Positions 738-16,451 of a stretch of 16,875 bases of DNA are shown here, piece after piece. This DNA is from an uncultured Bacteroidia bacterium (GTDB lineage: Bacteria > Bacteroidota > Bacteroidia > Bacteroidales > UBA932), in the NCBI GenBank assembly GCA_902773305.1, contig CACYEB010000136.1, forward strand, positions 1 through 16,875, in the 5' to 3' direction. Under the pieces are notes generated by a model, which saw only the letters and a list, made by a program, of their open reading frames with translations, was not told the DNA's origin and did not search any database. Position 1 is the stretch's first letter. Every line of letters starts with the position of its first letter. Made by a program: the position numbers and the translations under genes.

Positions 738-2575
738 TATTTATACTTCTCTATAAGACAGGCAATCAGCTCGCGGCGTTCCAGCAGGAACTGCGGATCC
801 TGGATGTAGTACTTGTCGGGATGCCCGGCATCGTCGTCCATAAAGACCTCCTCGGGCAGTACCAGCAGTTCGCGGGCGGCTGCGGCATCGGCCTCGTCCA
901 TGGCAGGGATGAGTTCCCCGAGCATCTTCAGATACTCATAGTCCTCTATGCCGTCGCGGTTGATCTCCATACGGATGCAGGGGATGGGATCACCTGTAAA
1001 GACCGTTTCCTTATCCTCGTTTGGGTGTCGGTTGTTGGGGTAGAACATTATGCCGTCGCCGCAGGCGAAGAATTCGGGACCGGTCTTGCCTGTTCCGTAG
1101 CAGTCGGGAGTTTCCCATACGTTAAGTAGCTGACCTTCGGGCATTATGCAGGCGGAGTTCCAGCAGGTGGCGCTCCAGATAAGGATGCCCTTCATTCCGT
1201 ACATATATGTGGCCCAGAGCCACAGGCGTAAATCTATGCCGTTATGGTCTACGAAATTGGTGAAGTAGGGGTATTTGGTGGCGCAGCACAGGTAGCTCCA
1301 TACTTCCTGCCCGGGACCGCTGTATTCCGTCACCTTGGGGTGGTTGTCAAAACAGTTCCAGCTTACGCAGCTGATGTCGGTTACGTCCCCTACGTCAAAA
1401 TCTGCGGGAGTCTCCAGCCAGGTGACCTGCTCTGTCATAAAGGTGCGGATGCGCGGGGCGTATTTCTTCATAAGGGTATGTACCTCGCGGATATAGGGGT
1501 AGGAGGAATCCAGCGGCTCGTCACCCCAATAGATGTAACAGTTGTCCAGTACGCCGGCCTTCTCAAGGCCGTCCTGAAGCTTGGGCAGATAGTCGGCCAT
1601 CAGTGCCTCGTGCTCCGGTGTGCCGAATTCGTAGCCGCCGAAGGTACCGCGGACATAGCCGCCCGGACTGCAGCTGCCCAGCCCTTCAACATCCACTACG
1701 AATGAGTTGAAGCCTCCTTCGCCAAAGTACTTTGCGGCCACTTTGTTGAATTCGGTGAAATCCAGGCTGACAGTGTTGTCGGGATTGATGGTTGTCTTGA
1801 TGGGGGCATACCAGAACGGGTTGTACGGAGATATCTTATAATCGATAAAGGCGTCCAGATACTTGTAGAAGACCTCTTTCTGCTGCTCTATGGTCTTGAG
1901 GTTCTCGTAGTTTATCACGTGGTCGAACCAGAGACCGTAGCCGCTGGAGACACTGGGGGTGCGGGGCAGTGTGAAAGAACGTACTTTCACCCTCAGCGGA
2001 ATGTTGACCTTCCAGCCGTCGGCATCGGTTAGTACCACGCGGCCGCGGTAGCAGCCCTTGCGGCGCGAACAGGGAGTCTTGATTGTAATCCAGAAGGATG
2101 TGTTTTCGCCTGCCGGCAGGTCCTCTGCAACATCGTAGAGAGGCAGCGGATCGGGCCACTGGCCGGTGTAGCCGAAACTGTCGCTGGGGGTGCGGACGGT
2201 AACGTATTCTACCTTGCGCACCTTGGCCTCGACGCCTTTTGGCAGGCCTCTGACATCAACCTTAACAGCCTGTAGAGGAGTCTTGGGATTGACCACGATG
2301 ATGAAGGATTCGTATTCATTTTTTGCTGTAGTCAGTTTTATCCTGCGGCCTTTGCGCTGGGCCACCGGGGTGTCTTTCATGGGTTTGTAAACCCCTTCTG
2401 CCCACCAGATGTCAGCTTTGGGCGTATTCTTGACCAGATAGCCATAGCCGCCCTGAAGGGTCATATACGGGTCGCACTTTTCCAGTTTTTCAGCCTTCCA
2501 CTCCCTGGCGGCCAGGGCGGGAGCAACAGCAAGGAGGCCGGCGGCAACCAGAATTATCGTGAAGATTCTTTTCAT
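737..2575 (-). CDS. Secreted GH123/DUF4091-like glycoside hydrolase
   Basis: 612 residues with a clear signal peptide (basic MKR, hydrophobic core, ALA cleavage site near residue 22). An N-terminal beta-rich region (about 30-205) resembles the beta-sandwich of GH123 enzymes. It is followed by a barrel-like region (about 210-550) rich in Trp and Tyr. The sequence IYWGDEPL carries an adjacent Asp352-Glu353 pair; in GH123 such a pair serves substrate-assisted catalysis, Asp orienting the acetamido group and Glu acting as acid. RDGIEDYEYL (540-549) is a typical DUF4091 C-terminal signature. The family includes exo-beta-N-acetylgalactosaminidases, but many DUF4091 members are untested, so GalNAc specificity is inference. 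It lies 21 nt after the GH97 gene and its stop overlaps the esterase start, so the three enzymes are probably co-expressed and act in the periplasm or at the cell surface. Confidence 0.85.
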   Translation of the reverse strand: MKRIFTIILVAAGLLAVAPALAAREWKAEKLEKCDPYMTLQGGYGYLVKNTPKADIWWAEGVYKPMKDTPVAQRKGRRIKLTTAKNEYESFIIVVNPKTPLQAVKVDVRGLPKGVEAKVRKVEYVTVRTPSDSFGYTGQWPDPLPLYDVAEDLPAGENTSFWITIKTPCSRRKGCYRGRVVLTDADGWKVNIPLRVKVRSFTLPRTPSVSSGYGLWFDHVINYENLKTIEQQKEVFYKYLDAFIDYKISPYNPFWYAPIKTTINPDNTVSLDFTEFNKVAAKYFGEGGFNSFVVDVEGLGSCSPGGYVRGTFGGYEFGTPEHEALMADYLPKLQDGLEKAGVLDNCYIYWGDEPLDSSYPYIREVHTLMKKYAPRIRTFMTEQVTWLETPADFDVGDVTDISCVSWNCFDNHPKVTEYSGPGQEVWSYLCCATKYPYFTNFVDHNGIDLRLWLWATYMYGMKGILIWSATCWNSACIMPEGQLLNVWETPDCYGTGKTGPEFFACGDGIMFYPNNRHPNEDKETVFTGDPIPCIRMEINRDGIEDYEYLKMLGELIPAMDEADAAAARELLVLPEEVFMDDDAGHPDKYYIQDPQFLLERRELIACLIEKYK

Positions 2576-2596
2576 AGTTTTCCCAATCCCCGGGAA

Positions 2597-4570
2597 CTAC
2601 TTAGTCAGGATGACCGCGAAGCCGCCGCCCGAAGCCATATGGATGTTCAGCGGTTCATCGGCACTGACCGTCTTGAATTCGCGCTTGAAATCTGTGGCGT
2701 GGCGGTCGGCATTGGCACCGTCGCGGTAGATTTCTGCCTTCCAGCTGCCACCGCCAAGGAAACTGAGATCCACGGATACGTCGCGCTGGTCCCAGTTTGT
2801 GATGCCGCCTACATACCAGGTGTCACCGCTGCGTTTTGCCATAATCACAGATTCACCAACTTTCCCGTCGAGGCCGACAGTCTCGTCGAAAACGGTGGGT
2901 ATACGTGAGATAAACGAGAGGCATTCGGGCTCTTTGCGGTAGGCGGAAGGACCGTCGCAAAGCATACAGAGCGGGGAGTCGAAGATAACATATTCGCCAA
3001 GTTGATGGCAGCGGGTGCCCTGGCTCATGGGCTCGCGGCTCTTAAGATAGGTGCTCTTGGAGCCGTTGCGCATAGCGCCCTGGGTATAATCCACGACTCC
3101 GGAAGCCATACGGATGTAGGGGAAGGTCACATCGTTCAGTGGCATATCCATCTCAATGCCGCTCCATTTCATATTTTCCAGGCCGAAGACGCCCTCGTAG
3201 TTGAGCACGTTGGGATAGGTGCGGTTGAGACCGTGGGGCTTGAAGGCTCCGTGGAAATCCAGAACCAGATGATATTTCGCCGCAATCCTGGCAGCCTCTG
3301 TGTAGAATTCGAGCATCGGCTGGTCGTCGCGGTTCATAAAGTCCACCTTGAACCCTTTGATGCCCATCTTTGAATAGTGGTCACATACCTTCTCCATATC
3401 GCGGTGGAAGGCGTAGTATCCGGCCCAGAGTATGATGCCGACACCCTTGGCATTGGCGTGGGCGATAAGTTCTTCAAGGTCGATTTCCGGTACGATGTGG
3501 AAAAGGTCGCTGTAGCCGCTCTGGCTCCAGCCGTCATCCATAATGATGTACTCGATGCCGTTTTCCGAAGCAAAGTCTATGTAATGCTTGTAGGTATCGT
3601 TGTTGATTCCGGCCACAAAGTCAACGCCTGTAACATAGAAGCCGTTCCACCAGTCCCAGGCCACCTTGCCGGGCTTGACCCAACTGAAATCGCTGCCTTT
3701 GGCGGGAGCGTCACCCAGACGGTAAACTATGTCGTTTGTAGCCATATCGATATCCCTGGTGCTTACGGCGACAATCCTCCAAGGGAATCTTTCGCCGGCA
3801 TTGCACTCGGCCAGATAGTCGTGGCGGCTCTTGACGATTTCCTGGATGTTGTTGTATCCGCCCATTTCCAGTTCCTTGGGCATCTGGGGCCACAAACCGT
3901 GCAGTTTGGAGGTGCCGTCTGCCTGGAGATACATACCGGGATACTTGTAGAGAGCAGATTCCATTATGTTGATTTTGACCCCTTTGGGCGCATCGATCAT
4001 CTGCGGCAGGAAAGCCATTTTCTCAGGATGGATGGCGCTGAGTTTGGAGTATTCGTAGATATTCTCGAAAGACGATTCAAATGCGCCCCAGGAGAATCCG
4101 GCCCAGGTATTCCAGTCACCTGCAAAGTTGAACTCGGCGGTTTCGCTCTTTACCTTGAACGGTTTTTTGCTCTTGGAGATGAAACGATAGGCGATGCAGT
4201 CGTCATAGGCGCGGAAGACTACGTCGCAATTCTTATAAGACAGGGTCAGTTCGTTGTAACAGTCTGTGACTTCCGCGCGCTTGTAGGCTATCGCCTTGAA
4301 CTTGTCGTTCACGCTGCGACGGGTGAATTTCTGCATTTTGCCGCTTCCGTACACGCTTCCGTCGGTGAGCATCATCTCCACGCGGGAGTCATTCAGCAGG
4401 CAGTCACCATTGTGAAAAACGGAATACGAAAGGCCCTTGCCGACCGTGATGTTTGCAACGAGGCTTCCGTCGGGCGACATCACCTGGATGCTCTTGCCGG
4501 CTGCCGAGGCGGCAGCGCAAATTGACAGCGCAAACGCCGCCATTACAAAAAACTTGAGTGTCTTTTTCAT
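2597..4570 (-). CDS. Secreted GH97 family glycosidase, retaining-type (alpha-galactosidase-like)
   Basis: 657 residues, a normal GH97 length. A signal peptide (MKKTLKFF, then a hydrophobic run, ASA cleavage near residue 23) is followed by an N-terminal beta-sandwich (about 27-285), a (beta/alpha)8 barrel (about 290-560) and a short C-terminal beta domain. The barrel contains IMDDGWS (343-349), GFKVDFMN (406-413) and NYEGVFG (457-463). In characterised GH97 enzymes an Asp in the KVDF position is the nucleophile of the retaining subgroup, whereas the inverting SusB type uses glutamate bases elsewhere. Asp410 therefore points to the retaining, alpha-galactosidase-like branch, with Glu459 the likely acid/base. 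The start abuts the stop of the DUF389 gene with no spacer. Substrate (galactose or another alpha-linked sugar) is inferred from subgroup only; the family call is strong. Confidence 0.92.
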   Translation of the reverse strand: MKKTLKFFVMAAFALSICAAASAAGKSIQVMSPDGSLVANITVGKGLSYSVFHNGDCLLNDSRVEMMLTDGSVYGSGKMQKFTRRSVNDKFKAIAYKRAEVTDCYNELTLSYKNCDVVFRAYDDCIAYRFISKSKKPFKVKSETAEFNFAGDWNTWAGFSWGAFESSFENIYEYSKLSAIHPEKMAFLPQMIDAPKGVKINIMESALYKYPGMYLQADGTSKLHGLWPQMPKELEMGGYNNIQEIVKSRHDYLAECNAGERFPWRIVAVSTRDIDMATNDIVYRLGDAPAKGSDFSWVKPGKVAWDWWNGFYVTGVDFVAGINNDTYKHYIDFASENGIEYIIMDDGWSQSGYSDLFHIVPEIDLEELIAHANAKGVGIILWAGYYAFHRDMEKVCDHYSKMGIKGFKVDFMNRDDQPMLEFYTEAARIAAKYHLVLDFHGAFKPHGLNRTYPNVLNYEGVFGLENMKWSGIEMDMPLNDVTFPYIRMASGVVDYTQGAMRNGSKSTYLKSREPMSQGTRCHQLGEYVIFDSPLCMLCDGPSAYRKEPECLSFISRIPTVFDETVGLDGKVGESVIMAKRSGDTWYVGGITNWDQRDVSVDLSFLGGGSWKAEIYRDGANADRHATDFKREFKTVSADEPLNIHMASGGGFAVILTK

Positions 4571-5914
4571 TTATTCTGATTCTATAATGTTGTTCGCTAC
4601 AATGGTGGTGTCATCCAACCTCAGCCTGAGCCACCGGGTGATTTCTGCAATCTGTTCTGCGGAAAGGGCCTCCGATGACTGGATGATTGCATTGGTCACG
4701 GGAACCTCCGACAAGCTGTCGGCTTTCATGACCACCCGCGACCCCCGGGATATGGAGAGACTGCTTACTGAAGGATATTTATACTTCAGTTCCCTTGTGA
4801 CCTGTCCGTATGGGATAGCTTTGCCTTCTGTCTGGGACAGTTGGCTTTCCAGTTCCTTGATGCGGGCATCTCTGGCAGCTATCGCCTCGTCGCTGCGGGC
4901 ATACACTCCCTTGAGCAGTTCGTCGGCCCTGGCACCTACGGCGTTGACCTTGATGCTCAGTTTGGTTGTGTCAAGATTGTGCCGCCGTGCGGCATTGTAA
5001 AGGAAGTCCAGGTCGCCCGCTGTCAGATCGCCGGCAAAATAAACGACGGCGTCGCTTCCGGCAATGTCATAGTCGTAGATATAGGCGTTGCCATAGGCCT
5101 TGTTCTCTTCAACAAAGGCTGCCACATCGCGCTGGATGTTGTTGTCACGGATCATAGTTATGGCACTCAGCACGCTGGGAACTATTATCGCTATCAGGAT
5201 TATTGTGGAGATGGTGCGGAAGCTGCGGTTCTGCTGATTCTCTTCACTGACCCTGTCAAAGTGCATATAGCGGGCTGTGACGTAGGACGCCAGCAAGATG
5301 AAAATGGTATTGATCAGGAAGAGGTAAAGCGCTCCGAAAAAGTAGTGGAAATTGCCGCTGGCGATGCCGAACCCGGCGGTGCAGAGCGGCGGCATCAGGG
5401 CGGTGGCGATGGCTACTCCCGAGAGCACTACGCCCCGCTCCTTGCGGGTCTGCTCCAGCATCCCCGCGATACCTCCGGCAAAGGCGATGAACACGTCGTA
5501 CAGTGTCGGGCTGGTGCGGGCCAGCAGTTCCGTAGGATTGGCCATTTTGAGCGGAGAGAGCAAGAAGTAGAGGGTGGAGGAGACTATGCTCACCACCACC
5601 ATCACCAGAAAGTTTTTGAGTGCATTGACCAGCAGGTCTCTGTCGTTGGTGTAAAGCGACAGGCCCATACCGAATATAGGCCCCATAAGCGGCGATATGA
5701 GCATAGCGCCGATGATGACCGGTATCGAGTTGATGTTCAGGCCTACGGATGCTATTATTATGGAGCATACGAGAATCCAGACAGTGGTGCCGCGGACATT
5801 GATGCCCTTGCTGATTTTCTCTGTGGCAGAAACTGTGTCCAACTCCCCGGTCATCGAAATGATGGCCCGCCAGTGAACTTTGACTTTATCCCAGAAGGTC
5901 TTCTTGTCGCTCAT
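4571..5914 (-). CDS. DUF389 family multi-pass inner-membrane protein
   Basis: 447 residues from the ATG at 5914. The open frame extends further upstream, but that part lies inside the DUF362 gene, reads as Arg-rich non-coding-like sequence, and the 5914 start gives a normal 11-nt gap. Six or seven membrane segments occur between residues 43 and 254. Conserved DUF389 features include GLNINSIPVIIGAMLISPLM (58-77), GGIAGMLEQTRKERGVVLSG (147-166) and the Pro-rich ALMPPLCTAGFG. A soluble C-terminal half follows, with a probable coiled coil near 340-363. The family is widespread and its function is unknown; transport has been suggested but not shown. It sits between a DUF362 gene and two exported glycosidases, which may simply be transcriptional packing or may indicate a membrane function tied to the same substrate. 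Confidence 0.88.
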   Translation of the reverse strand: MSDKKTFWDKVKVHWRAIISMTGELDTVSATEKISKGINVRGTTVWILVCSIIIASVGLNINSIPVIIGAMLISPLMGPIFGMGLSLYTNDRDLLVNALKNFLVMVVVSIVSSTLYFLLSPLKMANPTELLARTSPTLYDVFIAFAGGIAGMLEQTRKERGVVLSGVAIATALMPPLCTAGFGIASGNFHYFFGALYLFLINTIFILLASYVTARYMHFDRVSEENQQNRSFRTISTIILIAIIVPSVLSAITMIRDNNIQRDVAAFVEENKAYGNAYIYDYDIAGSDAVVYFAGDLTAGDLDFLYNAARRHNLDTTKLSIKVNAVGARADELLKGVYARSDEAIAARDARIKELESQLSQTEGKAIPYGQVTRELKYKYPSVSSLSISRGSRVVMKADSLSEVPVTNAIIQSSEALSAEQIAEITRWLRLRLDDTTIVANNIIESE

Positions 5915-5925
5915 AAGTGCCGGTA

Positions 5926-6924
5926 CTATCCTTTGAAGGGTTTCAGTCCTTTCGCGGCATCCTTGGCCACTATTCGGGCACCGCCGTTGTCCAGGTCGAT
6001 GAGCACGTAGCGGTCGCATCCCATTCCAAGCTCTTTCATATAGCTGAGCTGGCGCAGGCCGTGGCGGGTCTCGATACGCTCCTGCAGGGCGTGCCGTTCG
6101 TTCTTTTTCATTGCGTAAATAATGTCCACGCTGGCCTGGTCAATGGCCAGGATGTCAAGTGACGCCAGGATGCCCACGTTGGGGGTAACAACGGGCTCTG
6201 CCTCGACGCCCTCGCAGTCGCAGGAAACAGACATATTGCGCATTACGTTGATGTAGGCCACATTCTTGCCGAAGTGGTCCACGGTGGCTTTCGTGGACTC
6301 GGTGATGCGCTCCATCAGTTCTTCCATAGCGATACTCCACATATCGTCGCTGCCGGCGGCGGTATGTATCATCTTCTTGCCGATCCGGCCGTCGGCGCAG
6401 CCTATGCCTATATTCTTGTTGCTGCCGCCAAAGCCGCCCATGGTGTGACCCTTGAAGTGAGTCAGCGTCAGCATGGAATCATAATTCATCAAATGGTTGC
6501 CCACGCTCATTGAGTCGAACCACTTACCGCCGTTCACCGGCAGCCAGAAGGTCCCTTCTTCGTCCATAATGTCCACGGGGCAGAATGTCCAGCCGTTGGT
6601 ACTGAGGGTGGCGCGATGCTGCTCTGTTGTATAGCGGTCGCCTTCGTAATATGTGTTGGTCTCGATAATAGAGGCGTCGGGGATGCGTTTTTCATAAAGA
6701 TTCTTCACCCACTGGCGCGGGATGATGTTGGGACCGTGGGGCTCTCCCGTGTGTAACTTGATGCCGATCTTGCCTTTGAGGCAGTCACTGATGGCGTCGT
6801 AGGCCTTGAGCAGGCCGCCAGCATCAAGCTTACGGGTGAAATACACGATTGATTCGTTTCCGCTGCGTTTTGAGTAAGGGATGTAAACTTCTCCGTTCTC
6901 TCCGGGTCTGGTATCTGGTCTCAT
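5926..6924 (-). CDS. DUF362 domain protein
   Basis: 332 residues. DUF362 signatures are visible: LTHFKGHTMGGFGGSNKNIG (residues 154-173), CADGRIGKK, and the SCDCEG cysteines (C235, C237) followed by PNVGILASLDILAIDQASVD. No four-cysteine ferredoxin cluster of the kind fused to many relatives is present. No signal peptide is seen, so it is probably cytoplasmic. The biochemical role of DUF362 is not established; redox or metal-linked roles are guesses. The frame is open to a GTG at 6951, but a Bacteroidota-type -7 box occupies 6951-6958, so that codon would fall upstream of the transcript start; the ATG at 6924 is preferred. It is the first gene of the five-gene minus-strand unit. Confidence 0.85.
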   Translation of the reverse strand: MRPDTRPGENGEVYIPYSKRSGNESIVYFTRKLDAGGLLKAYDAISDCLKGKIGIKLHTGEPHGPNIIPRQWVKNLYEKRIPDASIIETNTYYEGDRYTTEQHRATLSTNGWTFCPVDIMDEEGTFWLPVNGGKWFDSMSVGNHLMNYDSMLTLTHFKGHTMGGFGGSNKNIGIGCADGRIGKKMIHTAAGSDDMWSIAMEELMERITESTKATVDHFGKNVAYINVMRNMSVSCDCEGVEAEPVVTPNVGILASLDILAIDQASVDIIYAMKKNERHALQERIETRHGLRQLSYMKELGMGCDRYVLIDLDNGGARIVAKDAAKGLKPFKG

Positions 6925-8013: not shown

Positions 8014-8772
8014 CTAGAAGGTTTTAAAGAAAAGGGAAAACTTCAGCATAGGCACGACGGGTATGCCGTACAGTTTGTCGACGATGCCCCTGTCGTCGGC
8101 GTCGTGCTCCTTGAAATCGTTGCTGGTGATGCGGATGTATTCTTCCTGGCCGGTTTTGATATTGGTGCCGTAGGTGTAGAGGCCGAGACCGCCGCTGTAG
8201 CAGACACCAAGGTCAAAGCAGAAAGATACGAATTTGGATTTGTCGGCGGCACGGCCTGTGCCGATACCGAGGTAAGGTAGGACTTTATTGACCCCGACAT
8301 TGACTTTTGCCGCACCGTCCCGGTCGGTGAGAACCATTACGTCACCTATCCGTATACCGGACTCTGCCCAATCCTTATCTTCCGTTTCGGGCGTAAGGAT
8401 GGTGCTGACAAGGGTGCCGGGCCCCGCGAACAGTCCGACGGTGAAATGGAAAGGCGTTTGCCTGCCCGGAAAAAGATCCACCATCGCATTGAAACTCTTG
8501 ATATTCGCTCTGGCGTCGATGCCTAAACTCAAAGTCTCGCCCGGCTGATACTGAAAGTCCTTTATATTGCCTTTGTAGCCGAAGGGGGGCATATAGCTTC
8601 CGCCGATGCGCAGTTGTACGAAGTCGCCGACAGGGGCGGCCGCCTGAAGGGAGATACCGTCAAGGCCGAGACCGGCACCGAGCGCAAGATGATCGAAATA
8701 CTGTGCAGAAGCGGCGACAGGCGAGAAAAGAAGCGCCAATGACGCCAGTGAAATAATAAGGAATCGCTTCAT
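8014..8772 (-). CDS. Putative outer-membrane beta-barrel protein
   Basis: 252 residues. The N-terminus is a Sec signal peptide (MKRFLIISLASLALLF, ASA|Q cleavage near residue 23). The mature protein has repeated amphipathic strands separated by Gly, Asn or Asp turns, for example LALGAGLGLDGISLQAA, FHFTVGLFAGPG and FDLGVCYSGGLGLYTYG, and ends in an aromatic residue (FFKTF), as expected for an outer-membrane barrel recognised by the Bam complex. It lacks a TonB box or plug, so it is not a SusC-like transporter. It is transcribed away from the alarmone operon across a 77-bp divergent gap and precedes the lipoprotein gene by 11 nt. Function is unknown; a small porin-like or structural barrel is a reasonable guess. 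Confidence 0.75.
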   Translation of the reverse strand: MKRFLIISLASLALLFSPVAASAQYFDHLALGAGLGLDGISLQAAAPVGDFVQLRIGGSYMPPFGYKGNIKDFQYQPGETLSLGIDARANIKSFNAMVDLFPGRQTPFHFTVGLFAGPGTLVSTILTPETEDKDWAESGIRIGDVMVLTDRDGAAKVNVGVNKVLPYLGIGTGRAADKSKFVSFCFDLGVCYSGGLGLYTYGTNIKTGQEEYIRITSNDFKEHDADDRGIVDKLYGIPVVPMLKFSLFFKTF

Positions 8773-8849: not shown

Positions 8850-9938
8850 ATGAAAGAAATTAACGAACACACCGCGGCGATTCTCAATGAGTACCGCGCC
8901 TTGAAGCCGGCATTCGAGCAGATGGCTGAAAAACTGCCGGAAAAATTGAAGCAGTTCTTCGAGGAGGCGGGAGTCATTGTCGCGGCTATCGAACACCGTG
9001 TCAAGACAGAGCAGTCGCTTGCGGAGAAACTGGAATTGAAAGGAGACAAGTATGCCGGAATCACCGACATCACGGATATCGTAGGGCTTCGGATAATAAC
9101 TTTCTACATAGATGATGTAGACAAGGTGGCGTCTATGGTGGAGCGTCTTTTCGACATTGACTGGGAAAACAGCGTGGACAAGCGCAAGATGCACGAGATA
9201 GACAGATTCGGCTATCAGTCGCTTCATTACATTTGCCGGATACCCGAGTCAAGCTACAGGGACGCATCCCACCCGGAGGTAAATAAAATCCGGTTCGAAG
9301 TGCAGATGCGCACCGTCCTCCAACACGCCTGGGCGAATATGAACCACGATACCGGCTACAAGAGCGGCGTTGAGATTCCACAGAGATACTTGCGCAGCCT
9401 GAGCCGACTGGCCGGTTTGCTGGAACTTGTAGACGATGAATTCAGTCGCATCCGCAGCGAACTTGCCGACTATCGCCGCAAGGTGCAGAATCTGGTGGCT
9501 TCGGGAAATCTATCGGAAGTGCCGCTCGACGGTGATGCCTTCCGCAGCTATCTGGCGATAGGTCCTTTTGACAATCTTAACCGCCGGATAGCATCGATTA
9601 ACCAGGCGGAGATACAGCAGGTACCGCTTACGGACTATCTTTCTGTGTTTAAGGGTATGGGCTTCAAGACATTGGGGGACATAGACGGCCTTATAGACAA
9701 ATACGGTGAGGCGGCCTACCAGATAGCCTGCTTCCAGCTTGGCCTGACCGATATCGACATTATTTCATCTTCTATAGGGCCGCAGAACCTCTGCACCGCA
9801 TACATACTGAAAAACGGCGGCGGCAGCCTGGGCCTGAAGTTGATGCTGGATGCCATCAACGGCCCCGGCGAGGGCAACGAGGCGATGGCAAAGTTCCTTG
9901 TGGAGCAGGCTGGCGAGCTTCCCTTTATGAATCAGTAG
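8850..9938 (+). CDS. RelA/SpoT-domain small alarmone ((p)ppGpp) synthetase with C-terminal extension
   Basis: 362 residues. The first 210 match the RelA_SpoT synthetase fold, which transfers pyrophosphate from ATP to GDP/GTP. Visible catalytic features are IEHRVKTEQSLAEKL (basic Arg50, Lys52, Lys60 for ATP), DIVGLRI with metal-binding Asp76 and Arg81, the G-loop GYQSLH with guanine-stacking Tyr122, and FEVQMRT with Glu150, then HAWANMNHD. It therefore appears active. No HD, TGS or ACT domain precedes or follows, unlike long RelA/SpoT. Residues from about 215 to 362 form an extra region not found in typical 200-260-residue small synthetases, including a helix-rich stretch PLTDYLSVFKGMGFKTLGDI. 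The gene starts a unit with the HD hydrolase 3 nt downstream and the antiporter. A housekeeping small synthetase or a toxSAS-type toxin are both possible. Confidence 0.9.
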   Translation: MKEINEHTAAILNEYRALKPAFEQMAEKLPEKLKQFFEEAGVIVAAIEHRVKTEQSLAEKLELKGDKYAGITDITDIVGLRIITFYIDDVDKVASMVERLFDIDWENSVDKRKMHEIDRFGYQSLHYICRIPESSYRDASHPEVNKIRFEVQMRTVLQHAWANMNHDTGYKSGVEIPQRYLRSLSRLAGLLELVDDEFSRIRSELADYRRKVQNLVASGNLSEVPLDGDAFRSYLAIGPFDNLNRRIASINQAEIQQVPLTDYLSVFKGMGFKTLGDIDGLIDKYGEAAYQIACFQLGLTDIDIISSSIGPQNLCTAYILKNGGGSLGLKLMLDAINGPGEGNEAMAKFLVEQAGELPFMNQ

Positions 9939-9941
9939 ATT

Positions 9942-10520
9942 ATGGCAGAAGGACACATTGATACGACCCTGACGGACAGGGCAATAGTATTTGCAGTCAA
10001 AGCCCACGGCGGCACCGAACGCAGGGGCAAGGGCTTTCCCTATATAGTTCACCCGATGGAGGCGATGGCCATAGTCGCCACCCTGACCTCCGACCAGGAA
10101 TTGCTGGCTGCGGCAGCCCTGCACGATACGGTAGAAGATACCTCCGTTACCTTGGAGGATATCAGAAAAGAATTCGGCGACAGGGTGGCCGGCCTGGTGG
10201 ATGCAGAGAGTGACGTAGAGGTAGAAGGCGAAAGTGACGAGCAGAGTTGGCACTATCGCAAGCAGGTGGCGATGAACCGGCTGGCGTCCGCATCGCAGGA
10301 TGTCAAAATGGTGGCTATGGGCGATAAGCTTTCCAATATGCGTGCGATCGCCAGGGATTATGAAGTCCAGGGCGATGCATTGTGGGATTTGTTCCACATC
10401 AGGGACCGCCGTTCCCACGAGTGGCACTACCGCGGCCTGGCCGAGGCCCTTCGTTCTCTGGAAGGGACATTCGCCTATGAGGAGTTCTCTGAATTGATAG
10501 AAAAGGTATTTGGCAAATAA
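9942..10520 (+). CDS. HD-domain small alarmone hydrolase (MESH1-like)
   Basis: 192 residues, the usual size of stand-alone (p)ppGpp 3'-pyrophosphohydrolases. All expected metal-site residues are present: His37 in GFPYIVHP, His61-Asp62 in LHDTVEDT with Glu65 and Asp66 behind them, and Asp128 in MGDKLSNM. These correspond to the Mn-binding HD motifs of MESH1 and SpoT, so it should be catalytically competent and cytoplasmic. Residues 88-104 form an acidic insert (DAESDVEVEGESDE) before the following helix. It starts 3 nt after the synthetase stop and its own stop overlaps the antiporter ATG (TAATG). Its natural partner is the neighbouring synthetase, whose product it would degrade, as a homeostatic pair or as an antitoxin. 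A role on another pyrophosphorylated nucleotide or on NADPH, reported for metazoan MESH1, is less likely. Confidence 0.9.
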   Translation: MAEGHIDTTLTDRAIVFAVKAHGGTERRGKGFPYIVHPMEAMAIVATLTSDQELLAAAALHDTVEDTSVTLEDIRKEFGDRVAGLVDAESDVEVEGESDEQSWHYRKQVAMNRLASASQDVKMVAMGDKLSNMRAIARDYEVQGDALWDLFHIRDRRSHEWHYRGLAEALRSLEGTFAYEEFSELIEKVFGK

Positions 10521-11986
10521 TGGCTCTCACCGAAAACCTTCTGCTGCTGGCCTCTATCCTGGTGCTGTGCGCCCTGCTTGTGAACAAGTTCGGCAACCGT
10601 TTCGGCGCCCCGTCACTGCTGCTGTTCCTGCTCTTGGGTATGCTTGCCGGTGCAGACGGCATAGGCCTCCGTTTCGATGACTACGAGGTGGCCGAATCCA
10701 TCGGCCACTTTGCGATGACGATAATCATATTTTCGGGCGGCCTCCAGACCTCTTTCAAGGAGACCCGTCCCGTAATGTGGCAGGGGTTGGTACTCTCTAC
10801 CTTCGGAGTGTTGCTTACCATATTGCTTACGGGGGGATTCATATTCTTTGCTGCCCGGCCGTATACAGGCGTCATCGGTGGTTCGGTGCTGACCTGCCTG
10901 CTGCTCGCCGCCATTATGTCATCTACCGATTCGGCTTCGGTATTCTCCATACTTAAAGGCAAACGGCTGCATCTCAGGGAGAATCTGGGACCGATGCTGG
11001 AACTGGAGTCCGGAAGCAACGACCCTATGGCATATCTGTCCACCATAATACTGGTGCGTATGATAACCCTTCTCAAAGGCGGCGGCGTGAGCACCTGGAG
11101 TGCTGTCGGTTCGGCGGCGCTGTTGTTCATACTGCAGGTGGCTATCGGCCTTGCGGTGGGCTTTGTGGTGGGTTACGGCGCCAAATGGCTGCTGGAGAAG
11201 ATCAATCTCGACAGCAGCGCCCTGTATTGCATATTGGTGCTCAGCATAGCTTTCTTTGTGAGCGGTTTGGCCACGTTGCTCAAGGGAAACTCCCTGGTGG
11301 CGTTATACCTGTCCGCGATTATGATTTCGAACAGGGTACATATTCCCCAGAAACGGGATGTTCTCAAATTCTTTGACGGCATCACCTGGCTGATGCAACT
11401 GTTGATGTTCCTGATGCTGGGGCTGCTTGCCCGGCCGTCACAGATGAAGGACGTGGCTCTGCCGGCCGTCCTTATAGGTCTGTTTATGATGTTCGTGGCA
11501 CGCCCGGCGAGCGTATTCGTTTCGCTGCTGCCCGACAGGAAGACCTCATTCAAGGCCAAGGCTCTGGTTTCATGGGTCGGGCTCAAGGGAGCTGGCCCCA
11601 TCCTGTTCGCCCTCTGCCCCGTAGTGGCCGGTATCGAGGGGGGCGCCGATATCTTCAATATGGTGTTCTGCATCACCCTGCTCTCGCTGCTGATGCAGGG
11701 TATGACGCTGCCGCCGCTGGCCAAACGGATGAACCTCAGCTATGACGCCGATCCCGAAGTCAATACCTTCGGGGTGGAACTGCCCGAGGAGGTGGGGATG
11801 CTGCGCGACCATGTCGTGGTCGAAGAGGACCTGGCTGAGGGTGATACGCTGCGCGATCTGAGCCTGCCGCACGGTATCCGTGTGGTGACTGTGCGCCGCA
11901 ACGACAAGTTCCTGGTGCCTCACGGCAGTATGAAACTGATGCCGGGCGACCAACTGCTGATTATAATGGGCGACTCCGACGACTGA
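10520..11986 (+). CDS. CPA1-family potassium (or sodium)/proton antiporter with RCK_C domain
   Basis: 488 residues with about 12-13 predicted membrane segments up to residue 405. Typical CPA1/NhaP features are the GMLAG loop near 40-44, IIFSGGLQTSF, MSSTDSASVFSIL (133-145, with Asp137) and ELESGSNDPMAYL (161-173, with Asn167-Asp168), which form the ion-binding core. Residues from about 418 to the end form an RCK_C (TrkA_C) cytoplasmic domain (VVVEEDLAEGDTLRDL, then GDQLLIIMG). This is the layout of NhaP2/CvrA-type K+/H+ antiporters, although the C-terminal CorC_HlyC domain of the longer members is absent. Its ATG overlaps the hydrolase stop, so expression is probably coupled to the alarmone enzymes. 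It likely expels K+ or Na+ in exchange for protons; ion specificity cannot be read from sequence. Confidence 0.92.
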   Translation: MALTENLLLLASILVLCALLVNKFGNRFGAPSLLLFLLLGMLAGADGIGLRFDDYEVAESIGHFAMTIIIFSGGLQTSFKETRPVMWQGLVLSTFGVLLTILLTGGFIFFAARPYTGVIGGSVLTCLLLAAIMSSTDSASVFSILKGKRLHLRENLGPMLELESGSNDPMAYLSTIILVRMITLLKGGGVSTWSAVGSAALLFILQVAIGLAVGFVVGYGAKWLLEKINLDSSALYCILVLSIAFFVSGLATLLKGNSLVALYLSAIMISNRVHIPQKRDVLKFFDGITWLMQLLMFLMLGLLARPSQMKDVALPAVLIGLFMMFVARPASVFVSLLPDRKTSFKAKALVSWVGLKGAGPILFALCPVVAGIEGGADIFNMVFCITLLSLLMQGMTLPPLAKRMNLSYDADPEVNTFGVELPEEVGMLRDHVVVEEDLAEGDTLRDLSLPHGIRVVTVRRNDKFLVPHGSMKLMPGDQLLIIMGDSDD

Positions 11987-11989
11987 TTC

Positions 11990-13237
11990 CTAACTGCGGA
12001 ACATCGCCTTGACATCTTCCCACTTGTAGTAGGGGCCTCCTTCGAGGTTGATGAGTTTGGTTTCCCGTTCGTTAAGATAGAATTTGACCAGTACTTCGCC
12101 TGCCTTGTTGCGGTAGAATATCATTTGCAGGTTGCCGGCAAAGGGCGCTACGCGGGCGCACATCCACTCTTTGCTCTGCTCTGCCGTGAGCCGTTCTCCA
12201 ACTCCCTCAAGACCTATCCTGGCGCAGATTCCCAGCAGGTGGGTGTCGTGCCCGAACCTTAGATCCGCAGCATAATTGCCGGTGGCGATTGCCTCGTCTG
12301 CCTTTTCGATGACATCATCCAGAAAAGCCTTCACTTCGGGCAGCGCCATACGGCGGTCGCCGAATTCCACCGAATTACACTGGTGCAGGTACATATACAA
12401 TGACCAGTGCCGCTCGTGCCAGTAAAGGTCCTCTTCGTTGAAGAGTCTGAGCAGGGTGTCGTCGCAGTCGTATGCACCGCTGGCCACGGCAATATCCATA
12501 GTCTCGTCAAAGAACGTCCTGGCGGAGCCGACCAGCCTCCTGCCTGCTTCGGGGTCAAGGAAAACGTTGGCAAGGAAAGTTGCGGTGTCCGGGGTGTGTC
12601 CGGCCAGATCGGCCTGGAAGATGGGGGCGATGTCTCTCCTTATATCGGGGGTGTCGCCGCCGCTGACATATTTCATATATTGTTCACCGGTATCCCAGCC
12701 GATGTCCAGTCCGGGGTCCAGCGAAAGAAGTTCGCCAGTAAAGGCCGCCATAGAAATGATGCAGCGGGGAGAGGTGCTGGATACCGCCCTGATCCGGCGG
12801 CTGCCGCCCGAGAATACCTTCTTGTACTTGTTGTACATACGGTGTGCGATCTGGCGGTGTTCCCTGGCTCCCCGTGGAGTGAGCCTGCCGCCCATATCGT
12901 TGTAACGGCGGAAGATCTCGCTTACCATCAGAAAGGCCTTCTCTCCCTCCGGGGTAAGCAGGCCCGCTTCGTGGGCCTTGTAAAAATTGACCACTACGCC
13001 ACGGTAGCCATCCGCCGGCCAGTCGCTGCGGGAGCCGTGGCGTCCGTAATGACTTATGTAAAACGGCTTGTACCCCTTTGGAACGGGGGTCTCGGCCGTC
13101 GGCAGATATTCGTATGGATTGAGCACGATGCCGGAGCGGAAAAGGTTTTCGTGCACATAAGCATCAACCTTGCTGTCCTGGCCGTAGGCTGCCGCGGTGA
13201 ACAGAACAAGAGCGGCTATTAAAAAATAACGTTTCAT
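11990..13237 (-). CDS. Secreted histidine phosphatase superfamily protein (branch 2, phytase/MINPP-like)
   Basis: 415 residues from the ATG at 13237. The longer reading from 13267 is rejected because MKRYFLIAALVLFTAAAYGQ forms a proper signal peptide only from 13237. The catalytic RHG motif is in ISHYGRHGSR (61-70, with phospho-accepting His67 and Arg66) and the distal His-Asp pair in FGHDTHLLG (His330, Asp331). These are the landmarks of histidine acid phosphatases, including phytases and multiple inositol polyphosphate phosphatases. An insert of over 200 residues between the motifs forms the substrate cap. It probably dephosphorylates phosphomonoesters in the periplasm or outside. It has HDT rather than the HAE typical of MINPP, so the exact substrate is open. 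It is monocistronic, facing the antiporter with 3 bp between stop codons and diverging from kdgK. Confidence 0.87.
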   Translation of the reverse strand: MKRYFLIAALVLFTAAAYGQDSKVDAYVHENLFRSGIVLNPYEYLPTAETPVPKGYKPFYISHYGRHGSRSDWPADGYRGVVVNFYKAHEAGLLTPEGEKAFLMVSEIFRRYNDMGGRLTPRGAREHRQIAHRMYNKYKKVFSGGSRRIRAVSSTSPRCIISMAAFTGELLSLDPGLDIGWDTGEQYMKYVSGGDTPDIRRDIAPIFQADLAGHTPDTATFLANVFLDPEAGRRLVGSARTFFDETMDIAVASGAYDCDDTLLRLFNEEDLYWHERHWSLYMYLHQCNSVEFGDRRMALPEVKAFLDDVIEKADEAIATGNYAADLRFGHDTHLLGICARIGLEGVGERLTAEQSKEWMCARVAPFAGNLQMIFYRNKAGEVLVKFYLNERETKLINLEGGPYYKWEDVKAMFRS

Positions 13238-13257
13238 ATATCCTGTATTTGTTATGC

Positions 13258-13282
13258 AAAGTAACACAAAAAACGTAACTTT
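13258..13282. promoter_or_regulatory. Imperfect dyad in the kdgK divergent promoter region (candidate operator)
   Basis: The 73-bp gap 13238-13310 lies between the histidine phosphatase gene and kdgK. Within it AAAGTAAC (13258-13265) and GTAACTTT (13275-13282) form 8-nt arms that pair at 7 of 8 positions around a 9-nt A-rich centre. The right arm overlaps TAACTTTA (13276-13283), which is one base off the -7 consensus for kdgK, and the left arm overlaps a weak minus-strand -7 (TTACTTTG). A repressor binding here could control the uronate operon. No regulator gene is visible nearby. Confidence 0.3.
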
Positions 13283-13310
13283 AATGCCAAATCTGCAACG
13301 ACTCTTTTAT

Positions 13311-14348
13311 ATGTCAAAAGTGGTTACATTCGGCGAAGTGATGCTCCGGCTCTCCACCCCGGGTTATCGGCGCTTTTCCCAGTCGCACAGTTTCGACATA
13401 AGTTTTGGAGGCGGCGAGGCAAACGTGGCGGTCTCCCTTGCCAATTTTGGTATAGGTGCTTACTTTGTTACCCGCCTTCCCAGGAATGATATCGCCGATA
13501 TGTGCACGGCCGAACTCAAAGGTCTGGGTGTGAATTTGGATGGGGTTATTTACGGCGGCGACCGCATTGGCACCTATTATCTGGAAACTGGTGCTGTTGC
13601 ACGCAGTTCTAAGGTGGTTTATGACAGGGCCCATAGTGCTATTTCCGAAATCAGGCCCGGTATGGTGGATTGGAGAGTAATCTTTGAAGGGGCAGACTGG
13701 TTCCATTGGACAGGTATCACCCCCGCTATCAGTCAAGGGGCAGCTGATGTCTGTCTTGAGGCCATCAAGGTCGCAAATGAGATGGGGGTGAGGGTCTCTT
13801 GCGATATTAATTACCGCAAGAAACTCTGGAATTATGGAAAGAAAGCATCAGAAGTGATGCCTGCCCTTGTCGAAGGCTGCGATCTCATTCTTGCTAACGA
13901 GGAAGATGCAGAGAAGGTGTTTGGCATCAAACCTGAAGGTTTTGATGCGGAAAAGACAGGCGGAGATATAGACCAGGCCGAGTTTATAAGTGTTTGCCGG
14001 CAGTTGATGTCACGATTCCCCAGATGCGGGAAGGTCGCCATTACACTTCGAGGGTCGATAAATGCGAGCCACAACACCTGGGGGGGTGTATTGTATGATG
14101 GCAATTCACTTTGGCAGAGTCGCAGATATAACATTACCCATATAGTTGACCGGGTGGGCGGTGGAGATGCCTTTATGGGAGGGTTGCTATATGGTCTGAT
14201 GACTTATTCAAACGATCAGGAGGCTCTTGAATTCGCCGCAGCGGCATCGGCACTCAAGCATACAATTTATGGCGACTTCAACAGGGTTACTGTTCATGAA
14301 GTGGAAGCATTGATGTATGGCGGCGGCTCCGGGAGGGTATCTCGCTAA
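13311..14348 (+). CDS. kdgK: 2-dehydro-3-deoxygluconokinase (PfkB family sugar kinase)
   Basis: 345 residues. It phosphorylates 2-keto-3-deoxygluconate (KDG) to KDPG with ATP. PfkB signatures are clear: SFGGGEANVAVSLANFG (31-47) for sugar binding, and DRVGGGDAFMGGLLYGL (280-296) with catalytic Asp286 in the GGGD variant of the GAGD anion hole found in Bacteroidota KDG kinases. SCDINYRKKLW (163-173) and LANEEDAEKVFG are also typical of the KDG-kinase branch. The ATG at 13311 is preferred over one 57 nt upstream, since kinase homology starts at SKVVTFGEVMLRL and the longer form would include the promoter region. The KDPG aldolase gene follows after 22 nt, which supports the assignment over fructokinase or ribokinase. 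Confidence 0.9.
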   Translation: MSKVVTFGEVMLRLSTPGYRRFSQSHSFDISFGGGEANVAVSLANFGIGAYFVTRLPRNDIADMCTAELKGLGVNLDGVIYGGDRIGTYYLETGAVARSSKVVYDRAHSAISEIRPGMVDWRVIFEGADWFHWTGITPAISQGAADVCLEAIKVANEMGVRVSCDINYRKKLWNYGKKASEVMPALVEGCDLILANEEDAEKVFGIKPEGFDAEKTGGDIDQAEFISVCRQLMSRFPRCGKVAITLRGSINASHNTWGGVLYDGNSLWQSRRYNITHIVDRVGGGDAFMGGLLYGLMTYSNDQEALEFAAAASALKHTIYGDFNRVTVHEVEALMYGGGSGRVSR

Positions 14349-14370
14349 ATCATTAATAACAGATGGTCCA

Positions 14371-15033
14371 ATGAGCAAATTCAACAAGATAGAGACACTC
14401 GGTATTATTAGGGATACACGGATTGTACCGGTATTCTACAATCAGGATACGGCTCTTGCCAAGAAGGTCATAAAGGCCTGCTATGAAGGGGGTATCCGTG
14501 CCTTTGAGTTCACAAACCGTGGAGACAATGCCAATAAGGTGTTTGAAGAATTGATGTTTTTCGTGCGTACACAATGTCCGGAGATGGCTCTCGGGGCCGG
14601 GACCATTTTGGATGCACAAACGGCAGCCCAATATTTGCAGATTGGAGCAGATTTCCTTGTCTCCCCTTGTGTCCTAGAAGATGTCATCCCCGTTGCCAAC
14701 CGCCGAGGTGTCCTATACAGTCCCGGTTGCGGCACCGTTACAGAGATAGTCCACGCTATTGAACAGGGATGTGACCTTGTCAAAGTGTTCCCCGCAGGAG
14801 CTTTGGGCGGACCTTCTTTCGTCAAGAGCGTTATGGCTCCGCTCCCGTGGGTTATGATTATGGCCACCGGAGCTGTGGAACCCACCGAAGAGAATCTTGT
14901 GGCCTGGGCAAAGAGTGGTGTAACTGCAGTAGGGATGGGCTCAAGATTATTCCCCGAGTCTGTCCTTGCCTCACAAGACTGGGACTCCATATCGGTCCTT
15001 TGCAAGAAGTGCATATCCTGGTTTAAAGCATAA
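14371..15033 (+). CDS. kdgA: 2-dehydro-3-deoxyphosphogluconate (KDPG) aldolase
   Basis: 220 residues. It splits KDPG into pyruvate and glyceraldehyde 3-phosphate (class I aldolase). The (beta/alpha)8 signature residues are present: RAFEFTNRG with Glu46 as general acid/base and DLVKVFPAG with Schiff-base Lys138. GAGTILDAQTA (75-85), FLVSPC (95-100) and MATGAVEPTEENL (164-176) are also diagnostic. The start at 14371 (MSKFNKIETL) is chosen because an earlier in-frame ATG lies inside kdgK. Its stop overlaps the uxaC start (TAATG). Members of this family may also accept 2-keto-4-hydroxyglutarate (Eda), but the pairing with kdgK and uxaC points to uronate breakdown. Confidence 0.93.
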   Translation: MSKFNKIETLGIIRDTRIVPVFYNQDTALAKKVIKACYEGGIRAFEFTNRGDNANKVFEELMFFVRTQCPEMALGAGTILDAQTAAQYLQIGADFLVSPCVLEDVIPVANRRGVLYSPGCGTVTEIVHAIEQGCDLVKVFPAGALGGPSFVKSVMAPLPWVMIMATGAVEPTEENLVAWAKSGVTAVGMGSRLFPESVLASQDWDSISVLCKKCISWFKA

Positions 15034-16451
15034 TGGAGATGACTTTTATCAATGATGATTTTATGCTCAGAACAGCTGCAGCCCGTGGACTGTACCATAG
15101 GTATGCGGAGAAGATGCCCATTATTGATTATCACTGCCACCTTGTGCCGCAACAGATAGCGGAAAACATCCAGTTTAGGGATATCACCCAAATGTGGCTG
15201 GTCGACGGCCGCTATGGAGATCATTATAAGTGGCGTGCAATGCGGGCAAACGGTGTCCCTGAAGAATATATTACCGGCACGAGATCCTCTTGGGAGAAGT
15301 TTGAGAAATGGGCGGAAACGGTCCCGTATACCATGCGGAACCCGCTCTACCACTGGACCCATCTTGAACTTAGCCGCGTGTTTGGGATAGACAAACTTTT
15401 ATGCCCGGCAACTGCAAGAGAAATATATGAGGAGTGTAACGCAAGATTGGCGTCGGAGGATTTCCGAGGCCAGGCACTCATCCGTAGGTTCGGCGTCGAA
15501 ACAGTCTGCACAACAGATGACCCGGCAGACGACCTTCGCTGGCACAAGATGATCAAAGATAAGCCTTTTGGTACCAAAGTCCTCCCTGCGTGGAGGCCGG
15601 ACAAGGCTATGGCAATTGAAGAACCTGAATCTTTCAGGAAGTATATCGAAAGGTTGGGAGAAGCATCGGACACAGTAATTGGTTCCTATGCTGACCTTAT
15701 GGATGTTCTTCAGAAACGTCACGACTTCTTCGCATCAATGGGCTGTCGTTTGAGCGACCACGGATTGGAGACATTCTATTCAGAGCCATACAACCAAAGG
15801 GAGGTGGATTCTGTATTTAAGAACACTCTTGACGGCAAGACGCCATCCCCTTCTCAGCAGGACAAATATCACAGCGCATTTCTTCACGATATGGCCGTTA
15901 TGGACGCCAGGGATGGCTGGGTCCAGCAGTTCCACGTTGGAGCAATCCGTAACAATAACACCAAAATGTACGGAACTATCGGTCCCGATACAGGGTACGA
16001 TGCTATCCACGACCTCCCCATAGCGGCTGCCGGACACAGGTTCTTTGACCGGCTTGCCACTGAAGACGCTCTTGCCAAGACCGTCCTCTACTGTCTCAAC
16101 CCTAAGGACTATGAGGTAATGACTGCTATGGCTTATACCTTCAACGATGGCTCGATTCCAGGCAAGATGCAACTCGGCAGCGGCTGGTGGTTCCTGGATC
16201 AGGAAAGCGGTATCCGCAAACAGATCGATGCCTTGAGTACCCTTGGTCTGCTGAGCCGCTTTGTCGGTATGCTCACTGACAGTCGCTCTTTCATCAGTTA
16301 TCCCCGTCACGAGTATTTCCGCAGAATTTTGTGTGATATTTTGGGAAAGGATATAGAGGAAGGCAAACTGCCCGGAAGTGAAATTGACTTCATCGGTAAA
16401 TTGGTAGAAGATATTTCGTACAACAACGCGAGGAATTACTTCCATTTTTAA
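15033..16451 (+). CDS. uxaC: Glucuronate (uronate) isomerase
   Basis: 472 residues, the normal UxaC length. It interconverts D-glucuronate and D-fructuronate (and galacturonate and tagaturonate) in the amidohydrolase fold. The metal-binding motif IDYHCHLVPQQIAENIQF carries His34 and His36. Further signatures are RRFGVETVCTTDDPADDLRWH, FHVGAIRNNNTKMYGTIGPD, GWWFLDQESGIRKQI, and DSRSFISYPRHEYFRRILC starting at Asp416. No truncation or frameshift is seen. It starts at an ATG overlapping the kdgA stop and is followed 18 nt later by uxuA, so it is the entry enzyme of this operon. Whether glucuronate or galacturonate is the main substrate is decided by the presence of uxuA, which favours glucuronate. 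Confidence 0.95.
   Translation: MEMTFINDDFMLRTAAARGLYHRYAEKMPIIDYHCHLVPQQIAENIQFRDITQMWLVDGRYGDHYKWRAMRANGVPEEYITGTRSSWEKFEKWAETVPYTMRNPLYHWTHLELSRVFGIDKLLCPATAREIYEECNARLASEDFRGQALIRRFGVETVCTTDDPADDLRWHKMIKDKPFGTKVLPAWRPDKAMAIEEPESFRKYIERLGEASDTVIGSYADLMDVLQKRHDFFASMGCRLSDHGLETFYSEPYNQREVDSVFKNTLDGKTPSPSQQDKYHSAFLHDMAVMDARDGWVQQFHVGAIRNNNTKMYGTIGPDTGYDAIHDLPIAAAGHRFFDRLATEDALAKTVLYCLNPKDYEVMTAMAYTFNDGSIPGKMQLGSGWWFLDQESGIRKQIDALSTLGLLSRFVGMLTDSRSFISYPRHEYFRRILCDILGKDIEEGKLPGSEIDFIGKLVEDISYNNARNYFHF

Follow-up and report, generated by a model that had tools for sequence, protein, structure and literature searches.

Why would a cation/proton antiporter be encoded in one tightly coupled operon with an alarmone synthetase and an alarmone hydrolase? 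The question is raised by a 16,875-nt stretch of DNA (hereafter the window), which is contig CACYEB010000136.1 (C136) of a metagenome-assembled genome (MAG; 1.54 Mb, 69.9% complete) of an uncultured Bacteroidia bacterium. Three intact open reading frames (ORFs) follow one another on its + strand, coding for a small alarmone synthetase (SAS; 8850-9938, 362 aa), a small alarmone hydrolase of the HD_4 family and Mesh1/SAH type (9942-10520, 192 aa; HD protein) and a CPA1-family antiporter (10520-11986, 488 aa). A first-pass annotation had proposed this trio as a unit. The trio does exist, and the interpretation first given to it is partly supported, but it is not the natural unit: in near relatives the SAS and the hydrolase are encoded in an operon that also has an APH-like kinase and a partner-switching cassette. 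In the explanation that we favour, with a probability of roughly 0.6, partner switching exerted over the SAS and the hydrolase adjusts (p)ppGpp to an outside cue, the antiporter being a co-expressed accessory.

The gene identities and couplings first annotated were borne out by the ORFs, by Pfam and NCBIfam matches and by the junctions. That is, the SAS (Pfam RelA_SpoT, 1.8e-20) ends in TAG, 3 nt upstream of the ATG of the HD gene (TAG-ATT-ATG, 9936-9944, + strand), and the TAA of the HD gene overlaps the antiporter ATG (TAATG, 10518-10522, + strand). The HD protein (Pfam HD_4, 1.9e-21) matches solved relatives (7qoe, 1.1e-20; 4yf1, 2.8e-19), its HDxxED, HP and DKLSN motifs are invariant in 14 sequences of the genus, and with an HD_4 domain bearing the HDxxED and D..N motifs it belongs to the small alarmone hydrolases. 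The HD_4 family and the metal-site motifs are thus common to this protein and the Mesh1/SAH enzymes, from which it differs in being fused to an APH-like kinase in several lineages. The antiporter matches Na_H_Exchanger (8.9e-45) and, at its C-terminus, TrkA_C (RCK_C; 2.2e-10), and scores 504.7 bits against the NCBIfam model NF003716 'potassium/proton antiporter' (cut-off 355), a class that we take to be the CvrA/NhaP2 type.

The trio is repeated, in the same order and with identical junctions, in one further MAG from this genus (G015, locus L028), and therefore is not an assembly accident. The first-pass annotation would have read the absence of this gene order from every related genome as a sign of chance adjacency; the order was found this once more. 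An SAS match was present in 20 of the 25 same-genus genomes searched, and the HD gene directly follows the SAS in 19 of these 20 (the loci of G002 and G014 lie at contig ends, the remainder of the G014 HD gene being on a different contig). The exception, G013, has a broken SAS copy, lying in two frames (L046, 7386-8176), and no adjoining HD gene. Direct succession of HD gene and antiporter, as in the window, occurs in G015 only (1/19). In 17 of the 19 genomes the HD gene is followed by a gene for an APH-like kinase of the TIGR02172 family (fused to HD in G010), and in G022 by a PP2C gene. Downstream of the APH gene come a protein of ~713-745 aa, which in locus L031 combines an MCP-like PDC/dCache sensor, a SpoIIE/PP2C domain and an RsbW-like HATPase, and then a 100-aa STAS protein; the intergenic spacings in L031 range from a 4-nt overlap to a 4-nt gap. 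This SAS-HD-APH-Cache/PP2C/HATPase-STAS set was found in 11 genus loci, with the antiporter next in 8 of them. In nine genomes of the genus besides G015, an antiporter orthologue lies ~2.5 to 3.4 kb on, on the same strand and behind the operon genes (in one, G018, it is truncated at a contig end).

A profile census of 112 loci (20 from the genus, 12 from the order and control sets, and 80 named loci), with an SAS in 111, extends this picture. For the named loci, the 80 nearest among at least 462 confirmed relatives were taken, so that their frequencies hold for near relatives only; L086, L093 and L096, at least, are shared with the genus set. By their MAG labels, which were taken unchecked, they come mostly from ruminant digestive-tract Bacteroidales or Bacteroidia, with a minority of Paludibacteraceae, Prevotella/Prevotellaceae, Fibrobacter (n=2) and Akkermansia (n=1). 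The commonest order, SAS-HD-APH-Cache=PP2C=HATP-STAS, accounts for 41 of the 111 SAS-holding loci (27 without the antiporter and 14 with it), and a permuted order, Cache=PP2C=HATP-STAS-SAS-APH-HD, for 14; the remaining loci are variants, reach contig ends or have the SAS alone. Among the 55 named loci that were usable for strand counts (at least 5 kb on both sides of the SAS; the other 25 were dropped for short flanks), the SAS strand carries within 5 kb an HD gene in 51, APH in 49, PP2C in 50, HATPase in 52, STAS in 50 and the antiporter in 12, while the opposite strand carries none of them (0/55 for each family). All five core functions are on the SAS strand within 5 kb in 43/55 loci, and within 7 kb in 42/46. 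On a quickly built tree of 82 SAS, without bootstraps, the gene-order class changes 2 times and antiporter membership at least 10 times, the latter tally being biased towards more changes because antiporter-bearing loci were counted whatever their flanks and antiporter-free loci only with >5 kb on both sides. Thus, order is permuted between clades and gene content holds, in the census as on the tree.

At greater distance, 9 of the 393 genomes of the order that were searched, the window's own included, have a full-length SAS (E <= 1e-150), and the same 9 have an HD orthologue (E <= 1e-40). In nine further genomes the matches, to SAS of other kinds, were weaker (E 1e-15 to 1e-34); three of the loci concerned (L074-L076, a distant SAS kind) were inspected and lack all of the partner genes. 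In a draw across the phylum, only 2 of 395 genomes besides the window's reached E 1e-40, and no HD or cassette match lay in the 14 kb around either SAS.

Where, then, is the rest of the set in the window's own genome? The cassette is made up of a PP2C phosphatase bearing a Cache sensor, an RsbW-type kinase, which in most cases is part of the same protein, and a STAS antagonist; contig C68 of the same MAG (L077) encodes PP2C/HATPase (2855-5026), STAS (5032-5331) and APH (5338-6165) in a row, so that a PP2C/SpoIIE phosphatase, an RsbW-type kinase and a STAS protein with a phosphorylatable Ser are encoded together there. In G015, PP2C/RsbW, STAS and APH are likewise away from the trio, on short contigs, STAS adjoining APH. 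A different split is seen in G001, G002, G004 and G014, with SAS-HD-APH in one place and PP2C-STAS-antiporter elsewhere. Homologues (~36% identity) of a divergent window gene (8014-8772, - strand, 252 aa, no Pfam match) lie divergently upstream of PP2C in G001, G004 and G014; none is in view in G002, where the contig ends at that point. The set has thus been retained although its linkage is broken at different points in different genomes. The SAS-HD-antiporter trio of the window is probably half of a sensory operon that has been split, PP2C/RsbW-STAS-APH on the other contig being the second half.

The cassette proteins share with RsbU, RsbW and RsbV of the sigma-B pathway the SpoIIE-family PP2C, the RsbW-type HATPase and the STAS domain with a conserved Ser motif. 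Conserved in at least 90% of the census matches are YISSSGLR in STAS, the N-box Asn in HATPase, GGD and GDVSGKG in PP2C, and HGDLQ and IDLGD in APH; we assume that the motifs of the first three correspond to the residues of RsbV, RsbW and RsbU. What differs from the sigma-B pathway is the presence of alarmone enzymes and an APH kinase, and no sigma factor gene was recognised as a regular member in the census, whose profile searches did not include sigma factors. The two arms are further connected by gene fusions. HD=APH fusions occur in 6 of the 112 census loci and in 118 of 120 proteins among the matches listed, and STAS=APH fusions in L170 and L182 and in 120 of 120 among the matches listed (the query's own protein included), three of which also have HATPase_c_2. 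Such fusions connect the switch with the hydrolase.

The STAS=APH fusion of L170 belongs to a paralogous partner-switch cassette (1473-5949) beside an NMT1/THI5-like gene (Pfam), and paralogous cassettes in L183 and L185 stand beside genes that look similar by eye. A 642-aa protein, P0185, has STAS and APH domains together with PF03306, presumably alpha-acetolactate decarboxylase. A full-text search of open-licence PubMed Central (PMC) articles found no paper under the family name TIGR02172.

In the mechanism that we propose, a ligand at the extracytoplasmic Cache domain would set the activity of the membrane PP2C phosphatase, which would dephosphorylate STAS, the RsbW-type kinase rephosphorylating it; phosphorylation is predicted here from the motifs. 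Unphosphorylated STAS would then act on the alarmone enzymes, most likely via the APH-like TIGR02172 kinase, engaging APH/HD and perhaps the SAS. The balance of synthetase and hydrolase would thereby shift, in one direction or the other, with the outside cue, and the level of the presumed product (p)ppGpp would move with it. Where present, the K+/H+ antiporter would be made along with these enzymes and might, as part of that response, adjust the balance of ions or pH. In the window's genome, a rearrangement would have separated SAS-HD-antiporter from PP2C/RsbW-STAS-APH, the two halves now lying on different contigs.

Partner switching classically acts on transcription, and the same genes could instead form a shared regulon, in which the switch targets a sigma factor or another regulator and the alarmone genes, APH and antiporter are co-transcribed outputs with no control at the protein level. 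The unlinked halves in the window and several relatives would fit such an arrangement. So would partner-switch genes that stand without alarmone genes in the same genomes (L170, L171, L173 and L179), which indicate that the cassette has other uses, and regulators near single loci, namely an ECF sigma gene 4 kb upstream of the SAS in L038 and a LuxR-type gene after the SAS in L153. Against a shared regulon alone, the STAS=APH and HD=APH fusions make one protein the connection between the switch and the hydrolase arm, and the same genes are retained whatever their order and despite several splits. We regard it as unlikely, though deserving of some weight.

Several further observations, together with the regulators and the lone cassettes just named, weigh against control of the alarmone enzymes by the switch. 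The link between C136 and C68 rests on binning and on the same pattern in G015. No fusion of the SAS to another family of the set was seen in the census, and in G028 an HD orthologue, APH and cassettes lie at separate places with no SAS match. SAS-HD pairs stand without a nearby cassette in L070, L071 and L121, the last having none in 9 kb on either side; the genomes of L070 and L071 (f101) have a Cache-PP2C-HATPase-STAS cassette elsewhere and yielded no full APH. Finally, L131 has the SAS alone.

As for the antiporter itself, the first-pass annotation had offered a stress module with the alarmone enzymes as one of two options; the antiporter recurs as an operon member, but its membership is optional. 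It was found in 26 of the 112 census loci, in 22 at full length, in 2 truncated by contig ends and in 2 shortened internally, and in the 12 usable named loci that have it as an operon neighbour it is full length in 10. It occupies four positions, i.e. after STAS, after HD, after APH, and between the HATPase and STAS genes. The shortened copies, in L095 (10699-11577) and L128 (12343-13014), are single open frames that keep both ends and lack the middle, with ~190 and ~250 model positions, respectively, lacking a counterpart; they may be real, decaying or an effect of assembly. In L153 (6083-10074, Prevotella sp. UBA2754), which encodes in a row an RsbW-type kinase, a CitMHS transporter with TrkA_C domains, two STAS proteins and the SAS, it is this CitMHS transporter that lies between the RsbW-type and STAS genes. 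The antiporter might still adjoin the alarmone genes by chance in this lineage, which would be compatible with partner-switch control of (p)ppGpp. Most operons lack it, it was not found in census operons of the PP2C-STAS-SAS-APH-HD order, its membership changes often on the SAS tree, and two copies are without the central part of the protein. Chance is nevertheless improbable in our view, given the 12/55 same-strand against 0/55 opposite-strand occurrences, the four positions, the predominance of full-length copies and the different TrkA_C-bearing transporter in L153. The antiporter is thus a recurrent but optional accessory of one part of the family; it shares its score class and TrkA_C with other NF003716 antiporters and differs from them by recurrent membership in an alarmone operon.

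What kind of synthetase is at the centre of this operon? The SAS has a single RelA_SpoT synthetase domain (residues ~6-218), without the hydrolase/TGS architecture of the long RelA/SpoT homologues (RSH). The R/K/S/K, D and E/Q residues, which we take to be the SAS catalytic motif, are invariant in 49 sequences, and the SAS residues align to those of RelQ-type structures. A structure model (pLDDT 88.8) best matches RelQ/RelP in fold comparisons made with VIA-align, and by both profile and fold the SAS is nearest to RelQ/RelP, with CapRel, Tas1 and FaRel2 further away; the first-pass annotation had called for such a placement. Synthetase domain, catalytic residues and fold are thus shared with RelQ/RelP (SasB/SasA), from which the SAS differs by an extra, mostly helical C-terminal domain (residues ~228-354) and by its operon with a hydrolase and a signalling cassette. 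None of the fold matches listed reached the C-terminal domain, which was not compared alone, and this has no bearing on its novelty. A table of the 2011 RSH survey gives only Rel and RshB for its eight Bacteroidia (PMC3153485).

Two further explanations, both starting from systems that the first-pass annotation had named, were given up. One was a toxSAS toxin-antitoxin system, in which the SAS would act by tRNA or (p)ppApp chemistry, HD would be the enzymatic antitoxin and the antiporter an unrelated neighbour. Tight SAS-HD coupling in nearly all loci and the co-occurrence of the two (9/9) would suit it. However, the SAS is distant from the toxSAS by profile and fold, and it is kept across the genus with a full signalling cassette; we rejected this explanation as extremely improbable. 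The other, a split alarmone system in place of a long RSH, was rejected because the same MAG holds a long RSH on contig C206 (truncated at the contig end); SAS-HD is thus not the only alarmone system of this MAG.

A role in phage defence or on mobile elements, with the hydrolase as a safety device among unrelated neighbours, draws on three matches, which also count against the proposed partner switching: PADLOC candidate PDC-S33 (1.8e-18), PHROG 9640 (SAS residues 9-292, 5.4e-66) and an SAS relative, 43% identical over residues 4-216, on a Bacteroides finegoldii phage-plasmid. The last is encoded near capsid, portal and terminase genes (L187, NZ_OY725946.1, 5010-6083). An SAS relative on a Cetobacterium plasmid adjoins a phosphate--AMP phosphotransferase gene. 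In plasmid and phage records, no place covers 80% of the SAS. The PDC-S33 match spans SAS residues 5-162 only, no hydrolase or cassette gene is annotated next to the copy on the phage-plasmid, an SAS match is present in 20 of the 25 same-genus relatives, and the partners are signalling genes. The neighbours of the phage-plasmid and Cetobacterium copies weaken the mobile-element explanation, and we consider it very unlikely.

Elsewhere in the window lie a histidine phosphatase branch 2 protein gene convergent with the antiporter gene (11990-13267, - strand), overlapping uronate-catabolism genes (13254-16451, + strand) for a KDG-kinase-like PfkB, KDPG aldolase and glucuronate isomerase UxaC, and genes for a retaining alpha-galactosidase (2597-4570, - strand) and a TIGR00341-family protein (4571-6019, - strand), both exceeding curated cut-offs.

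The larger set joins two known kinds of system together, and its nearest worked-out precedent is SiaABCD of Pseudomonas aeruginosa. As described in PMC8457831 and PMC7647112, SiaC resembles anti-sigma factor antagonists, has its phosphorylation switched by the SiaA phosphatase and the SiaB kinase, and binds and activates the diguanylate cyclase SiaD, so that c-di-GMP is controlled by SiaABC. In both systems, here by prediction, a phosphatase and a kinase determine the phosphorylation of a small protein that resembles an antagonist and whose gene accompanies that of a synthase for a nucleotide second messenger (PMC8457831, PMC7647112). The likeness is one of working only: there is no SiaD here, the synthase being RelA_SpoT, a (p)ppGpp-type synthetase accompanied by a hydrolase, an added APH-like kinase and a Cache sensor; the kinase, of RsbW type, mostly forms one protein with the phosphatase. 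No account of alarmone enzymes joined to partner switching was found in open-licence PMC articles, judged by titles and the starts of abstracts, and a term search in a review of STAS-only proteins (PMC8256260) met no mention of ppGpp or alarmones in the text covered.

A more specific version, which we advance tentatively and at somewhat under even odds, is that partner switching, driven by a Cache-PP2C membrane sensor, controls (p)ppGpp, the TIGR02172 kinase being the hub between STAS and the hydrolase and the antiporter a plug-in effector. To our knowledge, how alarmone levels are set by outside signals, apart from ribosome-sensed starvation, is largely open. An operon that joins a membrane sensor and a partner switch to the making and breaking of alarmones would offer a directly testable route, chiefly in uncultured rumen bacteria; it also hints at what the widespread TIGR02172 APH-like kinases, and their STAS and HD fusions, might do. 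If partner switching does act in this way, it would be a new class of alarmone control, and rumen Bacteroidales, perhaps also Fibrobacter, would have a ribosome-independent, stringent-type response to an extracellular cue.

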